A DNA stretch of 50,022 nucleotides from an uncultured Oscillospiraceae bacterium (GTDB lineage Bacteria; Bacillota; Clostridia; Oscillospirales; Oscillospiraceae): the NCBI GenBank assembly GCA_947625965.1, contig CANQQO010000004.1, positions 1-50,022 on the forward strand, in the 5' to 3' direction. Below are positions 21,398 to 31,424 of the stretch, in pieces (position 1 is the stretch's first letter; each line of letters begins with the position of its first letter). The notes below the pieces were generated by a model. That model worked only from the letters and a program-made list of their open reading frames with translations, was not told the DNA's origin and made no database searches. The position numbers and the translations under genes were made by a program.

Positions 21398-21568
21398 CTT
21401 CCGTCCGCTACGACGTGGGGACAAAGTCGGGCCTTGCCCGCGTTTTGCGCTGCAAAAAGGGTCCCGCCAGTGCACGCACTGGCCGCCGACAGCCTGCCGG
21501 GCTGTTGGATTTGATCTTTCAAGTCCCTCTACCAAAATAAACCCGCCCTAAGGGCGGGTTTATTTTGG
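21398..21568. repeat. Solitary diverged relative of the tRNA-Ser-tail repeat
   Basis: Contains the same signature order as the tandem array at 22.4-23.0 kb: TTTTGCGCTGCAAAA, GCCAGTGCACGCACTGGC, the CAGCCTGCCGGGCTG hairpin, GGATTTGATCTTTCAAGTCC, then a terminator-like palindrome ending TTATTTTGG. The left tRNA-like arm is not recognisable. No gene is present between 21318 and 21650. Confidence 0.65.
21532..21568. terminator. Strong palindromic terminator downstream of sdaA
   Basis: CCAAAATAAACCCGCCCT and AGGGCGGGTTTATTTTGG form an 18-bp perfect stem with T-rich flanks on both strands; it can serve sdaA and the convergent methyltransferase gene. Confidence 0.8.
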
Positions 21569-22325: not shown

Positions 22326-22360
22326 TTCTATATCTCCCTTATACAAAGTGCTTTTTTGGC

Positions 22361-22989
22361 GGAGAAGGAGGGATTTGTCTCCGTTTTTGCTGCGCAAAAA
22401 CAAAGGACCGGCCAGTGTGCGCACTGGCCGCCGACAGCCCGCCGGGCTGTCGGATTTGATTATTCAAATCCCTCCTAAGGCCAAAATGAAACCGCCCTTA
22501 GGGAGCTTTGTTTTGGCGGAGAAGGAGGGATTTGTCTCCGTTTTTGCTGTGCAAAAACAAAGGACCGGCCAGTGTACGCACTGGCCACCGACAGCCCACT
22601 GGGCTGTCGGATTTGATCGTTCAAATCCCCCCTAAGGCCAAAATGAAACCGCCCTTAGGGAGTTCCGTTTTGGCGGAGAAGGAGGGATTTGTCTCCGTTT
22701 TTGCTGCGCAAAAACAAAGGACCGGCCAGTGTGCACACTGGCCGCCGACAGCCCACTGGGCTGTCGGATTTGATTATTCAAATCCCTCCTAAGGCCAAAA
22801 TGAAACCGCCCTTAGGGAGTTTCGTTTTGGCGGAGAAGGAGGGATTTGTCTCCGTTTTTGCTGCGCAAAAACAAAGGATCGGCCAGTGTGCGCACTGGCC
22901 GCCGACAGCCCACTGGGCTGTCGGATTTGATCGTTCAAATCCCCCCTAAGGCCAAAATGAAACCGCCCCTAGGGCGGTTTCATTTTGGC
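22361..22989. repeat. Four 157-bp tandem repeats built on the 3' end of tRNA-Ser
   Basis: Units start at 22361, 22518, 22675 and 22832, and the next unit start (22990) is the tRNA-Ser gene itself. Each begins GGAGAAGGAGGGATTTG, identical to the complement of the tRNA's last 17 nt before its NCCA end. It continues through three hairpins (TTTTTGCTGCGCAAAAA; GGCCAGTG..CACTGGCC; a CAGCCCRCYGGGCTG stem) and an inverted tRNA-like arm (TTCAAATCCCTCCT), and ends in a copy of the tRNA terminator whose right arm has decayed in all but the last unit. Track ORFs inside are shadows. Confidence 0.88.
22952..22988 (-). terminator. Terminator of tRNA-Ser
   Basis: CCAAAATGAAACCGCCC paired with GGGCGGTTTCATTTTGG, overlapping the tRNA CCA end on the minus strand. 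Confidence 0.8.
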
Positions 22990-23077
22990 GGAGAAGGAGG
23001 GATTTGAACCCTCGATACCCTTTTGGGGTATACACGATTTCCAATCGTGCGCGCTCGGCCAGCTACGCGACTTCTCC
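22986..23077 (-). tRNA. tRNA-Ser (GGA)
   Basis: 92 nt with encoded CCA. The acceptor stem is GGAGAAG/CTTCTCC with discriminator G. The anticodon stem CACGA/TCGTG encloses loop TTGGAAA (anticodon GGA). The long variable arm TACCCCAAAAGGGTA is diagnostic of a class II tRNA, and the T arm is GAGGGTTCAAATCCCTC. Confidence 0.95.
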
Positions 23078-24404: not shown

Positions 24405-24433
24405 TTGACAATCAAGCGAAAAGATTTTATACT
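24405..24433 (+). promoter_or_regulatory. SigA promoter of the esterase/ATP-grasp operon
   Basis: TTGACA, 17 nt, TATACT, 48 nt before the first start codon. It sits in AT-rich sequence between divergent galE and this operon. Confidence 0.78.
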
Positions 24434-24481: not shown

Positions 24482-25237
24482 ATGGTAAAAGTCTGGGAAA
24501 CTACCATCCCCCAGCTATCTGGGGAGGAGACCCGGCGCGTCTATGTGTATTTGCCAAAGTCCTACGCCAAAAAGCCGGAGCGGCGATACCCGGTGATGTA
24601 TATGTTCGACGGACACAACGTCTTCTTCGACGACCACGCCACCTACGGAAAGTCCTGGGGAATGGGGGAATACCTGGACAAAACCGAGAAGGATCTGATC
24701 GTGGCGGCGGTGGAGTGTACCCACCAGGGGAACAACCGTCTCAGCGAATATTCTCCCGTCAGCTTCGCCAACGAGGTTCTGGGCAAGGTCCGGGGCCGGG
24801 GCCGGGAGTACATGACCTGGCTCCTGGGGGAGCTGAAGCCCCAGATCGACCGGGACTATCGGACATTGCCGGACCGGCGGAACACCCTGATCTGCGGCTC
24901 CTCCATGGGCGGGCTCATGGCCCTCTACGCGGCGGTGAATTATAACAATGTATTCCAGCGGGCGGCCTGCCTGTCCCCCAGCCTGTGGGTGGACACGGGG
25001 AAGGTCCTCTCCCTTATCGCCCGGGGCCGGATGAAAACGGATACCTGCCTCTACATGGACTACGGCAGCCGGGAGCTGTTCAACCACAACGCCAGCACCG
25101 AGGCCCTGGTTGCCGCGTCTCAGCTTCTGCTGATCAAACAGGTGAACCTGACGCTGCGGATCGTCCCCGGCGGGGAGCACACCGAGGCGTCCTGGGAGCG
25201 GCAGATCCCCGTGTTTCTGGAATGCCTTGGGATTTAA
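24482..25237 (+). CDS. Alpha/beta hydrolase (esterase D-like), first gene of the ATP-grasp operon
   Basis: 251 residues. The nucleophile elbow is GSSMGG (139-144, Ser141); a probable catalytic acid is Asp193 in YMDYGSRE and the His is in GGEHTEASW (His233). YVYLPKSY, VMYMFDGHNVF and AAVECTHQGNNRLSEYSP match the putative esterase (enterochelin esterase/esterase D) family. No signal peptide, so cytoplasmic. ATG 24482 follows AGGGAGG. The next gene starts 11 nt later and encodes a second esterase of the same size, so the pair may act on one substrate. Substrate unknown. Confidence 0.85.
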   Translation: MVKVWETTIPQLSGEETRRVYVYLPKSYAKKPERRYPVMYMFDGHNVFFDDHATYGKSWGMGEYLDKTEKDLIVAAVECTHQGNNRLSEYSPVSFANEVLGKVRGRGREYMTWLLGELKPQIDRDYRTLPDRRNTLICGSSMGGLMALYAAVNYNNVFQRAACLSPSLWVDTGKVLSLIARGRMKTDTCLYMDYGSRELFNHNASTEALVAASQLLLIKQVNLTLRIVPGGEHTEASWERQIPVFLECLGI

Positions 25238-25247
25238 GGAGGAAGAA

Positions 25248-26003
25248 ATGGAAGTACAATATCACCGCCATTACTCCGGCGCCCTGGGCCGGGATATGGA
25301 ATTCAAGGTCTATGGTCACGCCGGCAAGCCGGTCCTGTTCATCCCCTGCCAGGGGGGCCGGTTCTTCGACTTCGAGAATTTCCGCATGACCGATTATTGG
25401 TACAAGTGGATCGACGCGGGAATGTGCACGGTCTACTCCGTGGACACCGTGGACAACGAGACCTACGCCGACCTGGGCGGCGACCCCCGGCGGCGCATCG
25501 AGCGGCACGAACAGTGGTATCATTACATCGTGGACGAGATGGTCCCCACCATCCGCCACATGAGCGGCCTGCGGAACGGCTACGATCAACGGATCATGCC
25601 CTTTGGCTGCTCCATGGGGGCCATGCACGCTGCCAACCTGTTCTTCCGGCGGCCGGACCTGTTTGACAAGGTCTTCGCCATCTCCGGACTGTATGACTCC
25701 CGGCTGTTCTTCGGGGACTATATGGACGACCTGCTGTACCAGAACACGCCGGTGGTGTACCTGTCCAATATGCCCCAGGATCACCCCTATATTCAGATGT
25801 ACAACGAGCGGACCATCCTGATCGTGGTAGGCCAGGGGGCCTGGGAGGACGAGCTCCTGGGCAGCACCCGCTGGCTGGACACGGTGCTGGCCCAGAAGGG
25901 CATCCGCGCCCGGATCGAATACTGGGGGTACGACGTGGATCACGACTGGCCCTGGTGGTATAAAATGGTGGACTATTATGTGCCCCAGCTTCTCAGCGAA
26001 TAA
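25248..26003 (+). CDS. Esterase family alpha/beta hydrolase, second gene of the ATP-grasp operon
   Basis: 251 residues. The nucleophile elbow is GCSMGA (120-125, Ser122) with PVLFIPCQGGRFFDFENF near the N-terminus and a likely catalytic His in DVDHDWPWW. The sequence differs strongly from the preceding hydrolase, so this is not a recent duplication. No signal peptide. AAGGAGG precedes ATG 25248. It is 18 nt upstream of the ATP-grasp gene. This family is common next to ATP-grasp proteins in gut Firmicutes and lactobacilli as far as I recall, but has no settled function. Confidence 0.83.
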   Translation: MEVQYHRHYSGALGRDMEFKVYGHAGKPVLFIPCQGGRFFDFENFRMTDYWYKWIDAGMCTVYSVDTVDNETYADLGGDPRRRIERHEQWYHYIVDEMVPTIRHMSGLRNGYDQRIMPFGCSMGAMHAANLFFRRPDLFDKVFAISGLYDSRLFFGDYMDDLLYQNTPVVYLSNMPQDHPYIQMYNERTILIVVGQGAWEDELLGSTRWLDTVLAQKGIRARIEYWGYDVDHDWPWWYKMVDYYVPQLLSE

Positions 26004-26021
26004 AGAAGGAGAGAGACGACT

Positions 26022-27218
26022 ATGAAAAACTTTATCTTCATTTCCCCCAATTTCCCAGTGACCTACTGGAAATTCTGCGCCGAGCTGAAAAACAACGGCC
26101 TGCGGGTCCTGGGCATCGGGGACTGCCCCTATGACCAACTGACCCAGCAGCTCCGGGACTCCCTCCATGAGTATTACAAGGTCTCCTCCCTGGAAAACTA
26201 TGACGAGGTCTTCCGCGCCGTGGCTTTCTTCACCTATAAGTACGGCAAGATCGACTGGCTGGAGTCCAACAACGAATACTGGCTGGAGCGGGACGCCAGA
26301 CTGCGGACGGAGTTCAACATTACCAGCGGCTTCAAGAGCGAGGACATGGAGCGGGTCAAGTGCAAGTCCGCCATGAAAGCCTACTACGCCAAGGCCGGCA
26401 TCCCCACCGCCCGGTATCACCTGGTGGAGGGCTATGACGACGCCGCCGAATTTGCCCACATGGTGGGCTACCCCGTCATTGTCAAGCCGGACAACGGCGT
26501 GGGCGCCAACAACACCTACCGCCTGAACAGCGACGACGATCTGCACTTCTTCATCGACACGAAGGACAGCAACGTCTATATCATGGAGGAATTCATCAAC
26601 GGCTACGTCCGCAGCTACGACGCCATCATCGACTCCCATGGCGACCCGGTCTTCGAGTCCGGCAACATCACGCCCAACTCCCTGATGGACATCGTCAACT
26701 CCCAGAGCAACTGCCTGTACTACCTGGTGCCCTACCTGCCCGAGGACTTCCGGCAGATGGGACTTCGGACGGTGAAAGCCTTTGGCGTCCGCAGTCGGTT
26801 CATCCACCTGGAGTACTTCGTTCTGAACCAGGACCAGGAGGGCCTGGGGAAGAAGGGGGACGTGATCGGCCTGGAGGTGAATATGCGCCCCGCCGGGGGA
26901 TACACCCCCGATATGTACGACTACTCCGCCGAGACTGACGTTTACAAGATGTGGGCGGACATGATCGCCTTTGACCGCTGCACCCTGCCCCAGGACAAGC
27001 CCCGGCACTTCTGCGCTTTCTGCGGCCGCCGGGACGGGAAGAAGTTCTACCTGGACCACAACGCCATCATGACCAAGTACGGTCCCAATATGCGGATGTG
27101 GGGCCGGATCCCCGACGCTCTCTCCGGCGCTATGGCCAATCAGATGTACGTGGCCGTATTCGACACGGAGGAGGAGATGTGGCGCTACTACCAGGATCTG
27201 CTGAACTGCGAGGAGTAA
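26022..27218 (+). CDS. ATP-grasp domain ligase
   Basis: 398 residues. The N-terminal preATP-grasp region (FIFISPNFPVTYWKFCAEL) is followed by the ATP-grasp fold: KSAMKAYYAKAGIPTARYHL, GYPVIVKPDNGVGANNTY (149-166), YIMEEFINGYVRSYDAI, and the metal-site motif VIGLEVNMRPAGGYTPDM. Such enzymes join a carboxylate to an amine or thiol through an acyl phosphate. The motif MRPAGGYTPDM is unlike the usual D-Ala-D-Ala or biotin carboxylase proteins. Together with two esterases it suggests a small-molecule or peptide modification pathway; the product is unknown. AGGAGAGAG precedes ATG. Confidence 0.85.
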   Translation: MKNFIFISPNFPVTYWKFCAELKNNGLRVLGIGDCPYDQLTQQLRDSLHEYYKVSSLENYDEVFRAVAFFTYKYGKIDWLESNNEYWLERDARLRTEFNITSGFKSEDMERVKCKSAMKAYYAKAGIPTARYHLVEGYDDAAEFAHMVGYPVIVKPDNGVGANNTYRLNSDDDLHFFIDTKDSNVYIMEEFINGYVRSYDAIIDSHGDPVFESGNITPNSLMDIVNSQSNCLYYLVPYLPEDFRQMGLRTVKAFGVRSRFIHLEYFVLNQDQEGLGKKGDVIGLEVNMRPAGGYTPDMYDYSAETDVYKMWADMIAFDRCTLPQDKPRHFCAFCGRRDGKKFYLDHNAIMTKYGPNMRMWGRIPDALSGAMANQMYVAVFDTEEEMWRYYQDLLNCEE

Positions 27219-27232
27219 GTATAGATCTATCT

Positions 27233-27269
27233 CAGGGATGGTATGACAAACGTCTGCCATCCCTGTTTT
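27233..27269 (+). terminator. Terminator of the esterase/ATP-grasp operon
   Basis: CAGGGATGG/CCATCCCTG stem followed by TTTT. Confidence 0.75.
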
Positions 27270-27356
27270 GATCCCGGCCTTCCTCCGAAGATACCCGGCC
27301 ACGTTTTCAGACCCGAGAGCGGAGAGCGCTGTTCCCTTGGCGCGGCGAAAAAAAGA

Positions 27357-27385
27357 TTGCGCGGCGGGAAAAATTACGGTATAAT
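27357..27385 (+). promoter_or_regulatory. SigA promoter of the ArsR-type regulator
   Basis: TTGCGC, 17 nt, TATAAT, 32 nt upstream of the start codon. Confidence 0.7.
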
Positions 27386-27417
27386 AGCGGTATCGAGACA
27401 AAAGGAGGGGGAAGCCC

Positions 27418-27711
27418 ATGGAACCCATGCCTGAAAAGGAGGTCCTGACCCAGATCGCGGAGCTGTTCAAGGGCTTCAGCGACGCCACCCGGGTGGAGAT
27501 ATTGTCCTTGCTGGTGGGGAAGGAGCTGTGCGTCAACGACATCGCCCAGGCGGTGGAGCTGAGCCAGAGCGCCGTCAGCCATCAACTGGGCCTGCTCAAA
27601 CGGATGCACCTGGTGAAAAACCGGCGGGAGGGCAAGAATCTGCTCTACTCCCTGGACGACAACCATGTTTTGACCATCCTGCAAACCGGATTGGAGCACG
27701 TCCGGGAATGA
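27418..27711 (+). CDS. ArsR-family winged-helix regulator
   Basis: 97 residues. LFKGFSDATRVEILSLLVGKELCVNDIAQAVELSQSAVSHQLGLLKRMHLVKNRREGKNLLYSLDDNHV is the ArsR/SmtB winged helix with the recognition helix SQSAVSHQL. ELCVND has the single Cys of the alpha-3 metal site (CxC reduced to one Cys), and the C-terminal LQTGLEHVRE lacks an obvious alpha-5 His/Asp site, so metal sensing is uncertain. Single-gene unit with its own promoter and terminator, so its target is elsewhere (possibly itself). Confidence 0.87.
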   Translation: MEPMPEKEVLTQIAELFKGFSDATRVEILSLLVGKELCVNDIAQAVELSQSAVSHQLGLLKRMHLVKNRREGKNLLYSLDDNHVLTILQTGLEHVRE

Positions 27712-27725
27712 TCTCTATGCGCGTT

Positions 27726-27759
27726 CGCCGCTCCCCCGAGGGGGAGCGGCGTTGTCTTT
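27726..27759 (+). terminator. Terminator after the ArsR-type gene
   Basis: CGCCGCTCCCCC/GGGGGAGCGGCG stem followed by TTGTCTTTA. Confidence 0.8.
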
Positions 27760-28732
27760 ATAATCCCTGTTCCCGCAAAAGCCCCAACAGGTCTTGGCCC
27801 CAGGGGAGGGGGGACAGGCGGGAGGACAGCGCTTCCTCCGTCAGGCGGCAGCCGGTGAGGGCCCGCTCCGTCCGCTCCGAAAGGGTGAAATCCATGGCGT
27901 CGGTGTAGACACGGGCGCTTTGGACCCTCCCCGCCTCGATTTGGAGCAGAAGCTGGACCCCGCCCCAGGGAAAGCGGCCCCGGCAGTCCAGGGTGAAGGG
28001 CAGGTCCCGGCCGTAATTCCACTCCCAGCTCGCGTTGCGGGCCGCCAGAGCGGCCACCGTTTCCGGCTCCGGCGGGGGCGCGGGAAGGGCCTGACCGCCG
28101 TAGACCCGGGAGAAGGCGGCTTCCAGAGCCTCCGCCAGCATTTCCACCGTCAGATCCTCCTTTAGGTCCGCCAGATTGCCCACCCGGCTCCGGACCGAGG
28201 CCACGCCCTTGGCCTCCAGCTTGGCCTTGGCGGGGCTCAGATAGCGGCTCAGCTTTTCCATGTCCGCCCGGACCAACAGGGTGCCGTGGTGATAGGCGGC
28301 GCCGCCGCCGTGATAGTAGGCGTTTCCCGAGAATTTCCGGCCCCCCGCCATCAAGTCGTTCCGGCCGGACCGCTCCGTGGGGATGCCCAGGGCGGCCAGG
28401 GCGGACTGGATCACGGACAGTTGGCGGGGAATGTCAAATTCCGCCTGGGGGGTGAGGATGGTGAAATTCAGATTCCCCAGATCGTGGAACACCGCCCCGC
28501 CGCCGCTCTGGCGGCGGGCCAGGAGGCCCCCCTCCCGCTCCAGCAGTCCGGTCCGACATTCCAGCCAGGGGTTCTGGTTCCGGCCGATGACCACCGTGTT
28601 CTGATTCTGCCAGAGGTAGAGGACCGTGGCCCCCGCCCCAGCCAGCTCCAGAAGGGCCGCCTCCACCGCCAGATTGTAATAGGGGTCGAAGGAGGTCCCC
28701 CGGTGGAGATAGAGGGTCACTCCGGTTGACAT
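27758..28732 (-). CDS. lplA: Lipoate--protein ligase
   Basis: 324 residues, with RRQSGGGAVFHDLGNLNFT, the catalytic region GRNDLMAGGRKFSGNAYY, YHHGTLLVRADM and a C-terminal accessory domain from about residue 240. It activates and attaches lipoate to the GcvH lysine (and related domains). It is last in the glycine cleavage operon, overlapping gcvPB by 16 nt. ATG 28732 lacks a clear ribosome-binding site, so translation is probably coupled to gcvPB. Its presence implies scavenging of lipoate rather than only synthesis. Confidence 0.92.
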   Translation of the reverse strand: MSTGVTLYLHRGTSFDPYYNLAVEAALLELAGAGATVLYLWQNQNTVVIGRNQNPWLECRTGLLEREGGLLARRQSGGGAVFHDLGNLNFTILTPQAEFDIPRQLSVIQSALAALGIPTERSGRNDLMAGGRKFSGNAYYHGGGAAYHHGTLLVRADMEKLSRYLSPAKAKLEAKGVASVRSRVGNLADLKEDLTVEMLAEALEAAFSRVYGGQALPAPPPEPETVAALAARNASWEWNYGRDLPFTLDCRGRFPWGGVQLLLQIEAGRVQSARVYTDAMDFTLSERTERALTGCRLTEEALSSRLSPLPWGQDLLGLLREQGL

Positions 28733-30117
28733 AATATAGGATTCCGGGCCGCCCGGACCTCGTCGGGCCGGCGGATCTGGGCGTGGTGAGGCGCCTCGTG
28801 CATATAGGCCGGGTCCTCGTGGGCCAGGTCGTAGAGCTTTAGAAACACCTCCGCCGCGTGGTCCAGGGTCTCCCGGCTCTCGGTCTCCGTGGGCTCCAGC
28901 ATCAGCGCCTCGTGGACGATGAGGGGGAAGTACATGGTGGGCGGGTGGATGCCGTAGTCGATGAGGGTCTTGGCCACGTCCAGGGCGGTGACGCCGGTCT
29001 CCTTCTTCAGCTCGCTCAGGTCCAGCACAAATTCGTGCATACACAGCCGGTCATAGGCGGGGCGATAGCGGGCCTTCAGCTTTGCCAGGAGGTAGTTGGC
29101 GTTCAGAACGGCGTTTTCCGCCGCCTCGGGGACGCCCTCCCGGCCCAGGGTCAGCAGGTAGGCCAGGGCCTTTACCACCACCAGGAAGTTCCCGGCGAAG
29201 GCGCGGACCTGGATGCCCTCTCCGCCGTCCATCAGGCGGGACTTGGGCAGATACTCCGCCAGGAAGCCCTTGCAGCCCACGGCCCCCGCTCCGGGACCGC
29301 CGCCGCCGTGGGGCGTGGCGAAGGTCTTGTGGAGGTTCAGATGGACGCAGTCGAAGCCCATGTCTCCCGGACGGGCCAGCCCCATGACGGCGTTCAGGTT
29401 GGCCCCGTCATAGTAGCACAATCCCCCGGCCCCGTGGACCAAACGGGTGATCTCCAGGATGTTTTTGTCGAAAATACCGACGGTGTTGGGATTGGTGAGC
29501 ATCAATCCGGCGATGTCCTCTCCCAGGACGGCCTTCAGCGCGTCCAGGTCCACGCAGCCGTCGGGCCCGGAGGGAATGTTCACGATCTGATAGCCGCACA
29601 TGGCGGCGGTCGCCGGGTTGGTGCCGTGGGCGGAGTCGGGGACCAGGATCTTGCACCGCTTTTTGTCCCCCCGGGCGTCGTGGTACTGCTTGATGAGCAG
29701 AACGCCGGTAAACTCGCCGTGGGCCCCGGCGGCGGGCTGGAAGGTCATGTCCTCCATGCCGGTGATCTCGCACAGGAGCTTTTTGGCCATGTCCAGGACC
29801 TCCCGGCAGCCCTCCGTGGCGGACCGGGGGGCCAGGGGATGGATGCCGGTGAAGCCCGGCAGGGCGGCCATTTCCTCGTCGATCCGGGGGTTGTATTTCA
29901 TGGTGCAGGAACCCAGGGGATAGAAGCCGCTGTTGACCCCGTGGACCCGGCGGCAGAGCTCGGTGTAGTGGCGGCTCAGGTCCGTTTCGCTGACTTCCGG
30001 CAGCTTGGGCGGGTCCGCGCGGCCCATGCCCTCCGGCAGGGAGACCTCCGGCACGTCGCACTCCGGCAGGTATTCCGTGCCCCGGCCGGGGACGCTTTTC
30101 TCAAAGATCAGATTCAT
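28717..30117 (-). CDS. gcvPB: Glycine dehydrogenase (aminomethyl-transferring) subunit 2
   Basis: 466 residues. The PLP-dependent aspartate-aminotransferase fold carries the Schiff-base lysine in HLNLHKTFATPHGGGGPG. Other P-protein motifs are SCTMKYNPRIDEEMA and PDSAHGTNPATA. It pairs with GcvPA as the P-protein that decarboxylates glycine onto GcvH. ATG 30117 overlaps the gcvPA stop as ATGA. The split P-protein is the usual Firmicute form. Confidence 0.95.
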   Translation of the reverse strand: MNLIFEKSVPGRGTEYLPECDVPEVSLPEGMGRADPPKLPEVSETDLSRHYTELCRRVHGVNSGFYPLGSCTMKYNPRIDEEMAALPGFTGIHPLAPRSATEGCREVLDMAKKLLCEITGMEDMTFQPAAGAHGEFTGVLLIKQYHDARGDKKRCKILVPDSAHGTNPATAAMCGYQIVNIPSGPDGCVDLDALKAVLGEDIAGLMLTNPNTVGIFDKNILEITRLVHGAGGLCYYDGANLNAVMGLARPGDMGFDCVHLNLHKTFATPHGGGGPGAGAVGCKGFLAEYLPKSRLMDGGEGIQVRAFAGNFLVVVKALAYLLTLGREGVPEAAENAVLNANYLLAKLKARYRPAYDRLCMHEFVLDLSELKKETGVTALDVAKTLIDYGIHPPTMYFPLIVHEALMLEPTETESRETLDHAAEVFLKLYDLAHEDPAYMHEAPHHAQIRRPDEVRAARNPILCQPE

Positions 30118-31424
30118 GAGAGCACCTCCTTCACGATCTCCACGGCCCGGTCCAGCGCCTCCCGGGAGACCTTCTCCGTGGCGCACCAGAGCACGCCGCC
30201 CTCGATGGGCAGGCCCCCCAGGATCCCCGCGTCCTCCAGGGCGGAGAGGACCTCCGCCGTCTTGGGCAGGGTGGTGACAAATTCATGGAAGAAGGCTCCC
30301 CCGTGGACCCGCTCCACGCCGGGAAGGGCGCAGAGCTTCTCCGCCAGATAGTGGGCCTTGGCCATGGACTCCCTGGCCGCCTTGGCCATGCCCGCCGGCC
30401 CCATGGCCGCCATGTACACGCCGGCGGTGAGGGCGCACAGCGCCTCGTTGGAGCAGATGTTGGAGCTGGCCTTCTCCCGGCGGATATGCTGCTCCCGGGC
30501 CTGGAGGGACAGCACGTAGGCCCGCTCTCCGGCGGCGTCCACCGTCTGGCCCACGATGCGGCCGGGGAGCTTCCGCATATATTTGGCCGTGGTGGCCATG
30601 AAGCCCAGGTAGGGCCCGCCGTAGCTCAGGGGCATACCCAGCGGCTGGCCCTCGCCCACGGCAATGTCCGCCCCGGCCTCCCGGGGCGTTTGCAGGATCG
30701 CCAGGGCGATGGGGTTGCAGCCAAGGATATACATGGCCCCGGCGGCGTGGACCGCCTGACCGATCTCCTGGGCCGGCTCCAAAAGCCCATAGAAATTGGG
30801 CTGCTGGACGTAGACCGACGCCACCTCGGGGGTCAGCATGGCGGCGAGGGCCTCCAAATCGGTCCGGCCGTCCTTCTGCGGGATCAGACGCAGCTCCGCC
30901 CCGGCGGCGTAGCAGTAGGTCTTCACGGTTTGGATGGTGTCGGGATGGGCGGCGGCGGAGATCAGGGTCACCCGGCGCTTCCGGTCCCGGCACATGGCGG
31001 CGGCCTCCGCCGCGGCGGTGGCCCCGTCGTAGACCGAGGCGTTGGACACGTCCATCCCGGTCAGGCGGCAGATCATGGTCTGGTATTCAAAGATGGACTG
31101 CAAAATGCCCTGGCTCATCTCCGCCTGGTAGGGCGTGTAGGCGGTGAGGAATTCCTCCTTGGCGGGGATGTACTTGACGATGCTAGGGATATAGTGGTCA
31201 TAGGCCCCGGCCCCCCGGAGGACTGTGGGGAACACCCGGTTTTTCTCCGCCATGGCGGAAAGGCTCCGGGCCACCTCCAGCTCGCTTTTGCCCTCGGGGA
31301 GGTCCAGCTCCGGCCGGTACATTTCCTCCGGCACGTCCCGGTACAGCTCCCGGAAGGAGGCCACCCCCACGGCGGAGAGCATTTCCTGCCGCTCCGCCGG
31401 GGTGGAGGGGATGTAGCTGCCCAT
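30114..31424 (-). CDS. gcvPA: Glycine dehydrogenase (aminomethyl-transferring) subunit 1
   Basis: 436 residues. It begins YIPSTPAERQEMLSAVGV and contains YQAEMSQGILQSIFEYQTM, GMDVSNASVYDGATA and GEGQPLGMPLSYGGPYLGF, all hallmarks of the N-terminal half of the P-protein, which lacks the PLP lysine supplied by subunit 2. Starts 1 nt after the gcvH stop with GGAGGG nearby and overlaps gcvPB by 4 nt. Confidence 0.95.
   Translation of the reverse strand: MGSYIPSTPAERQEMLSAVGVASFRELYRDVPEEMYRPELDLPEGKSELEVARSLSAMAEKNRVFPTVLRGAGAYDHYIPSIVKYIPAKEEFLTAYTPYQAEMSQGILQSIFEYQTMICRLTGMDVSNASVYDGATAAAEAAAMCRDRKRRVTLISAAAHPDTIQTVKTYCYAAGAELRLIPQKDGRTDLEALAAMLTPEVASVYVQQPNFYGLLEPAQEIGQAVHAAGAMYILGCNPIALAILQTPREAGADIAVGEGQPLGMPLSYGGPYLGFMATTAKYMRKLPGRIVGQTVDAAGERAYVLSLQAREQHIRREKASSNICSNEALCALTAGVYMAAMGPAGMAKAARESMAKAHYLAEKLCALPGVERVHGGAFFHEFVTTLPKTAEVLSALEDAGILGGLPIEGGVLWCATEKVSREALDRAVEIVKEVLS

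Follow-up and report, generated by a model that had tools for sequence, protein, structure and literature searches.

L-amino acid ligases (EC 6.3.2.28) form amides via an acyl phosphate (PMC9321006). The solved members closest to the protein described here are RizA (4wd3), BL00235 (3vot) and BacD/YwfE (3wnz, 3vmm), all of them ATP-grasp enzymes. The Pfam Esterase family (PF00756) unites alpha/beta hydrolases such as S-formylglutathione hydrolase/Esterase D, Ag85, the feruloyl esterases and the siderophore esterases (BES 2qm0, IroE-like 3gff). In a 50,022-nt stretch of DNA from an uncultured Oscillospiraceae bacterium (the window) we analysed an operon in which a ligase-like gene, gene G, follows two genes of the Esterase family, A and B.

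Layout of the A-B-G operon

The unit consists of the following features, all on the forward strand:

24405..24433 (+), sigma-70-type promoter, TTGACA-N17-TATACT, 11 of 12 consensus positions
24482..25237 (+), gene A, 251 aa, alpha/beta hydrolase, Pfam Esterase PF00756
25248..26003 (+), gene B, 251 aa, alpha/beta hydrolase, divergent PF00756 member
26022..27218 (+), gene G, 398 aa, ATP-grasp ligase, L-amino acid ligase-like
near 27233..27266 (+), intrinsic terminator hairpin followed by TTTT

The A-B-G operon is real. The first-pass annotation had described three open reading frames of these lengths, separated by 10 nt (A-B) and 18 nt (B-G) and packed between a promoter and a terminator, and all of this was borne out. 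Both promoter hexamers and their spacing are identical in the close relatives L063 and L064, where the bases around them are only about 72-73% identical. After gene G an 81-nt stretch folds strongly (-35.3 kcal/mol, z -5.6), and in L063 and L064 the same site is occupied by hairpins with T-runs whose sequences differ. An automated terminator scan did not call the hairpin after G, probably owing to the short run of just four T behind its stem.

Codon changes in A, B and G relative to their relatives are biased towards silent ones. The dN/dS against L063/L064 was 0.07-0.13 and covers A and G; the stop of gene B lies two codons earlier in that comparison. Against more distant copies it was 0.27-0.37 for the three genes, with 0.28-0.37 for gene B against L065 and L032. 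We rejected an 802-aa antisense open reading frame (25134-27542) as a shadow ORF: the operon is high in GC, and gene calling by codon usage retains A, B and G in its place.

Elsewhere in the window, a 157-bp unit is repeated head to tail about 4.2 times with 94% matches (22354-23006, +), and this array abuts a tRNA gene (22989-23077, -). In the 2.03-Mb assembly this unit is confined to that site, save for one diverged copy at 21446-21554. On the other side of the operon, a lipoate-protein-ligase-like gene lies beside glycine cleavage system genes (27758-31424, -; read from the translations only).

Enzyme classes of A, B and G

The first-pass annotation had suggested a structure prediction for the ligase, and the resulting model of gene G (pLDDT 92.7) ranked L-amino acid ligases first. 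Foldseek returned RizA (E 5e-24), then BL00235 and BacD/YwfE, which share with gene G a similar length and the ATP-grasp fold over the whole chain. RizA also came first in the profile search with the gene G family (E 2.9e-17), which makes the L-amino acid ligases the closest relatives in both rankings. The fold match, the conserved Lys and Glu, and an E-x-N-x-R metal/phosphate site place gene G in the ATP-grasp superfamily, and residues K155, E189, E190, R259, H262, E264, E285, N287 and R289 are invariant in 119 of 119 sequences. The motif NMRPAGGYTPDM (NMRPAGG), previously flagged as an unusual metal site, turned out to be the usual E-x-N-x-R site, since the profile alignment sets LEVNMRPAGG of gene G opposite GEIAMRIGGG of RizA, so that E-x-N-x-R-x-x-G meets E-x-A-x-R-x-x-G.

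Gene G is only 13-18% identical to these best structural matches. It differs from them in having no MFS exporter or other antibiotic-type genes as regular neighbours and two PF00756 proteins as partners. Pfam ATP-grasp models matched it mostly weakly, with CPSase_L_D2 just over its cut-off, and the best score with a curated NCBIfam ATP-grasp ligase model was 31 bits, where 625 would be needed, no listed model being reached. It had been proposed that a match to a known characterised family would refute the first-pass reading. Gene G indeed stays under the cut-off of every NCBIfam ligase model that it matched, but its fold is not an orphan, the closest solved structures being those of L-amino acid ligases. 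As those enzymes form amides via an acyl phosphate, gene G would, by analogy with the RizA/BacD-type relatives, most likely join a carboxylate to an amine, and its substrate would be amino-acid-like. The substrate switches easily in ATP-grasp enzymes.

The two hydrolases had been called unrelated, which is too strong. BLASTP found no significant match between A and B, but both belong to PF00756 (gene A, E 3.5e-26 and 92.9 bits; gene B, E 1.6e-11 and 44.9 bits; gathering cut-off 22), and they are therefore divergent members of one family. The putative catalytic triad of gene A consists of S141, H233 and, as the acid, E198 (or D193), and these candidates are invariant in 76 of 76 homologues. In gene B, which has an HDWPWW motif, the predicted triad S122-E200-H232 is invariant in 98 of 98. 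Since the Ser, acid and His candidates are preserved throughout both sets, A and B are probably both active enzymes.

Gene A shares with the feruloyl and siderophore esterases a GSSMGG nucleophile motif and a catalytic histidine region GGxHxEASW. Unlike them, it has no carbohydrate-binding module and no siderophore genes as regular neighbours, none being found among the conserved neighbours of the trio. As an enterochelin/trilactone esterase it scored 43.9 bits against an equivalog cut-off of 222. The predicted model of gene B (pLDDT 94.4) has S-formylglutathione hydrolase, feruloyl esterase and Ag85C as its nearest folds. Gene B has the alpha/beta hydrolase fold and GxSxG nucleophile of S-formylglutathione hydrolase/Esterase D and Ag85, and with Ag85 also the HxWPxW region. 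It differs from these enzymes in lying far under any equivalog cut-off (12-21% identity in fold matches), in its highly conserved GQGAWE acid loop and in having an ATP-grasp ligase as partner.

Neighbourhood and distribution of gene G

We compared 119 loci that were chosen for holding gene G and in which close relatives are over-represented, so the counts describe G neighbourhoods and not a random sample. The order was A-B-G in 76 loci, B-G in 12, B divergent to G in 6, A-G in 4 and G-B in 4, while G stood alone in 17, some of them at contig ends. The neighbourhood analysis proposed at first pass thus found at least one of B and A next to G in 102 of the 119 loci, well beyond the genus. Same-strand gaps in these loci are mostly short, and the genes flanking the trio vary between genomes. 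No other gene family recurred to a similar degree in the 119 loci; the next was an ABC ATPase group (20 loci), which is a large and widespread family. As noted at first pass, the unit includes no transporter, carrier or precursor gene.

Co-occurrence was very strong. In the family sample 25 genomes held both G and B, 3 only G, 1 only B and 122 neither (Fisher p 4e-24); the phylum sample gave 10, 2, 0 and 387 (p 3e-18). Both genes were thus found in 25/29 and 10/12 of the genomes having either, and genomes with B also carried G in 25 of 26 and 10 of 10 cases, respectively. Every family genome with a close gene A (E below 1e-40) carried G (19/19), and four genomes in which A does not adjoin G had a divergent A elsewhere. 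B is a near-obligate partner of G across phyla and A a second, more often optional one. The link between G and B is not absolute, since a few near-complete genomes have G without B, and B-like proteins occur in Rhizobium and Thiodictyon with no recognised G adjoining. The whole trio is missing from one 99% complete genome of the genus (G136), which fits gain or loss as a single block. The distances of A, B and G correlate with rho of 0.70-0.84, exceeding all 500 permutations and partly mirroring shared host ancestry.

Gene G was present in 38 of 61 genomes of the genus, in 28 of the 151 genomes sampled from the family (22 of 106 genera) and, phylum-wide, in 12 clear cases among 399 genomes; two more weak matches belong to a different group. 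In a collection of genome contigs we confirmed at least 583 stretches coding for homologues in species-representative genomes, and the best 80 of these came mostly from uncultured Clostridia. Gene G lies on large plasmids in Peptoclostridium, Sinorhizobium and Pararhizobium, with B adjoining in each, and the G-B pair of the Rhizobiaceae is 3 nt apart. One cultured carrier is Peptoclostridium acidaminophilum DSM 3953, whose plasmid bears the G-B pair. Restriction of the trio to one genus had been named as a result that would refute the first-pass reading; instead, the trio or the G-B pair spans families and phyla.

We also considered some candidates that were rejected. In two large-genome Bacillota (L168, L169), the ATP-grasp genes close to apparent MFS transporters are divergent, with 22-26% identity, and form a different group. 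Three 'Bacteriophage sp.' records match, which raised the idea of phage cargo; the record that we inspected, an unverified contig of faecal origin, also has an apparent phosphoglycerate mutase gene and is thus probably bacterial DNA. The ArsR/SmtB-type regulator downstream of the operon (27418-27711, +) adjoins G in only 6 of 119 loci, with gaps of -8 to 199 nt, and we did not count it in the unit since genomes of the genus often carry it where G is missing or lies at a distance. Its C-terminal D-x-H...H-x2-E pattern is like that of zinc sensors, and its homologue in L122 begins before G ends.

Several related arrangements were seen as well. Two genomes of the same genus (G593, G614) have extra gene G paralogues, 44% identical, beside the orthologous copy. 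In another genome (G110) the ligase is accompanied by a third alpha/beta hydrolase that differs from A and B, and these two are paired on another contig with no G adjoining (L046 10535-11311, -; L170 7727-9265, +). In Massilia litorea (L176 7875-11176, +) a distant gene G homologue with 29% identity follows aminotransferase and methyltransferase genes at gaps of 10 and 1 nt, which suggests a related small-molecule pathway.

Possible functions of the unit

We give about even chances to the reading that the three enzymes of A-B-G make up a dedicated pathway in the cytoplasm for a single small metabolite, with G forming an amide and A and B serving as acyl hydrolases or transferases. G would spend ATP to convert a carboxylate, most likely that of an amino acid or amino-acid-like acid, into an acyl phosphate and would couple this to an amine, so that a dipeptide-like amide results. 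B and A would either release the carboxylate substrate from an ester or thioester, or cleave or transfer the acyl group of the product; most likely they prepare the acid or process the product in the cytoplasm. Here we assume that all three enzymes act on the same compound, and we assume the order of steps. The metabolic role first suggested for a ligase with two hydrolases is plausible for genes sharing one operon, but the sequence does not separate recycling from detoxification.

Scavenging or detoxification, with A and B cleaving ester-linked compounds from the diet or the host and G then attaching an amino acid to the acid that is released, is the strongest of the alternatives and still unlikely. 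Many loci from the genome-contig scan come from gut or rumen MAGs, feruloyl and siderophore-trilactone esterases are among the closest solved relatives of gene A, and neither an exporter nor a carrier is part of the unit. An importer is likewise absent, though, and the N-termini of A and B have no obvious signal sequence. Moreover, the pair is also found in soil Rhizobiaceae, mud Peptoclostridium and large-genome Bacillota, so diet is no general explanation.

Somewhat less probable still is a purely biosynthetic unit in which the two proteins with a hydrolase fold finish the product as acyltransferases or cyclases. The mycolyltransferases Ag85C and PS1 are among the profile and fold matches of gene B, and B has the H-x-W-P-x-W surroundings of Ag85 with a glutamate as the putative triad acid; the folds of S-formylglutathione hydrolase and feruloyl esterase, however, match B equally well or better, and the H-x-W region is also found outside transferases.

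Some ATP-grasp ligases act on peptides and proteins, and G might accordingly modify a macromolecule (a peptide tag, the cell wall or a protein side chain) from which A and B take the modification off. We consider this improbable: the pairing fits the logic of a ligase plus an eraser, but no gene for a peptide, the cell wall or a target is conserved in the 119 neighbourhoods, and the nearest structures of G use free amino acids. That A, B and G are neighbours by inheritance only, with no shared pathway, is very hard to credit: members are occasionally unlinked or missing, but the order is the same in many genera with changing flanks, the genes recur together across phyla and their co-occurrence is very strong. 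A search for anti-phage defence with PADLOC models matched no family at E 0.01.

Returning to the small-metabolite pathway, the trio is real, widespread and apparently undescribed, although it is built from known kinds of enzymes and is not a categorically new system. Open-literature searches for the trio or for COG4947 turned up no relevant paper and none that describes the trio. We tentatively propose, as a possibility somewhat short of even, that an undescribed small-molecule pathway, common in gut Clostridia and found in soil bacteria too, uses an L-amino acid ligase-like G and two serine acyl-hydrolases or transferases to synthesise, remodel or turn over amide metabolites of a new class. 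If this amide reading is true, A, B and G, all small and soluble, would define a compound that is widespread among gut bacteria and easy to reconstitute in vitro.
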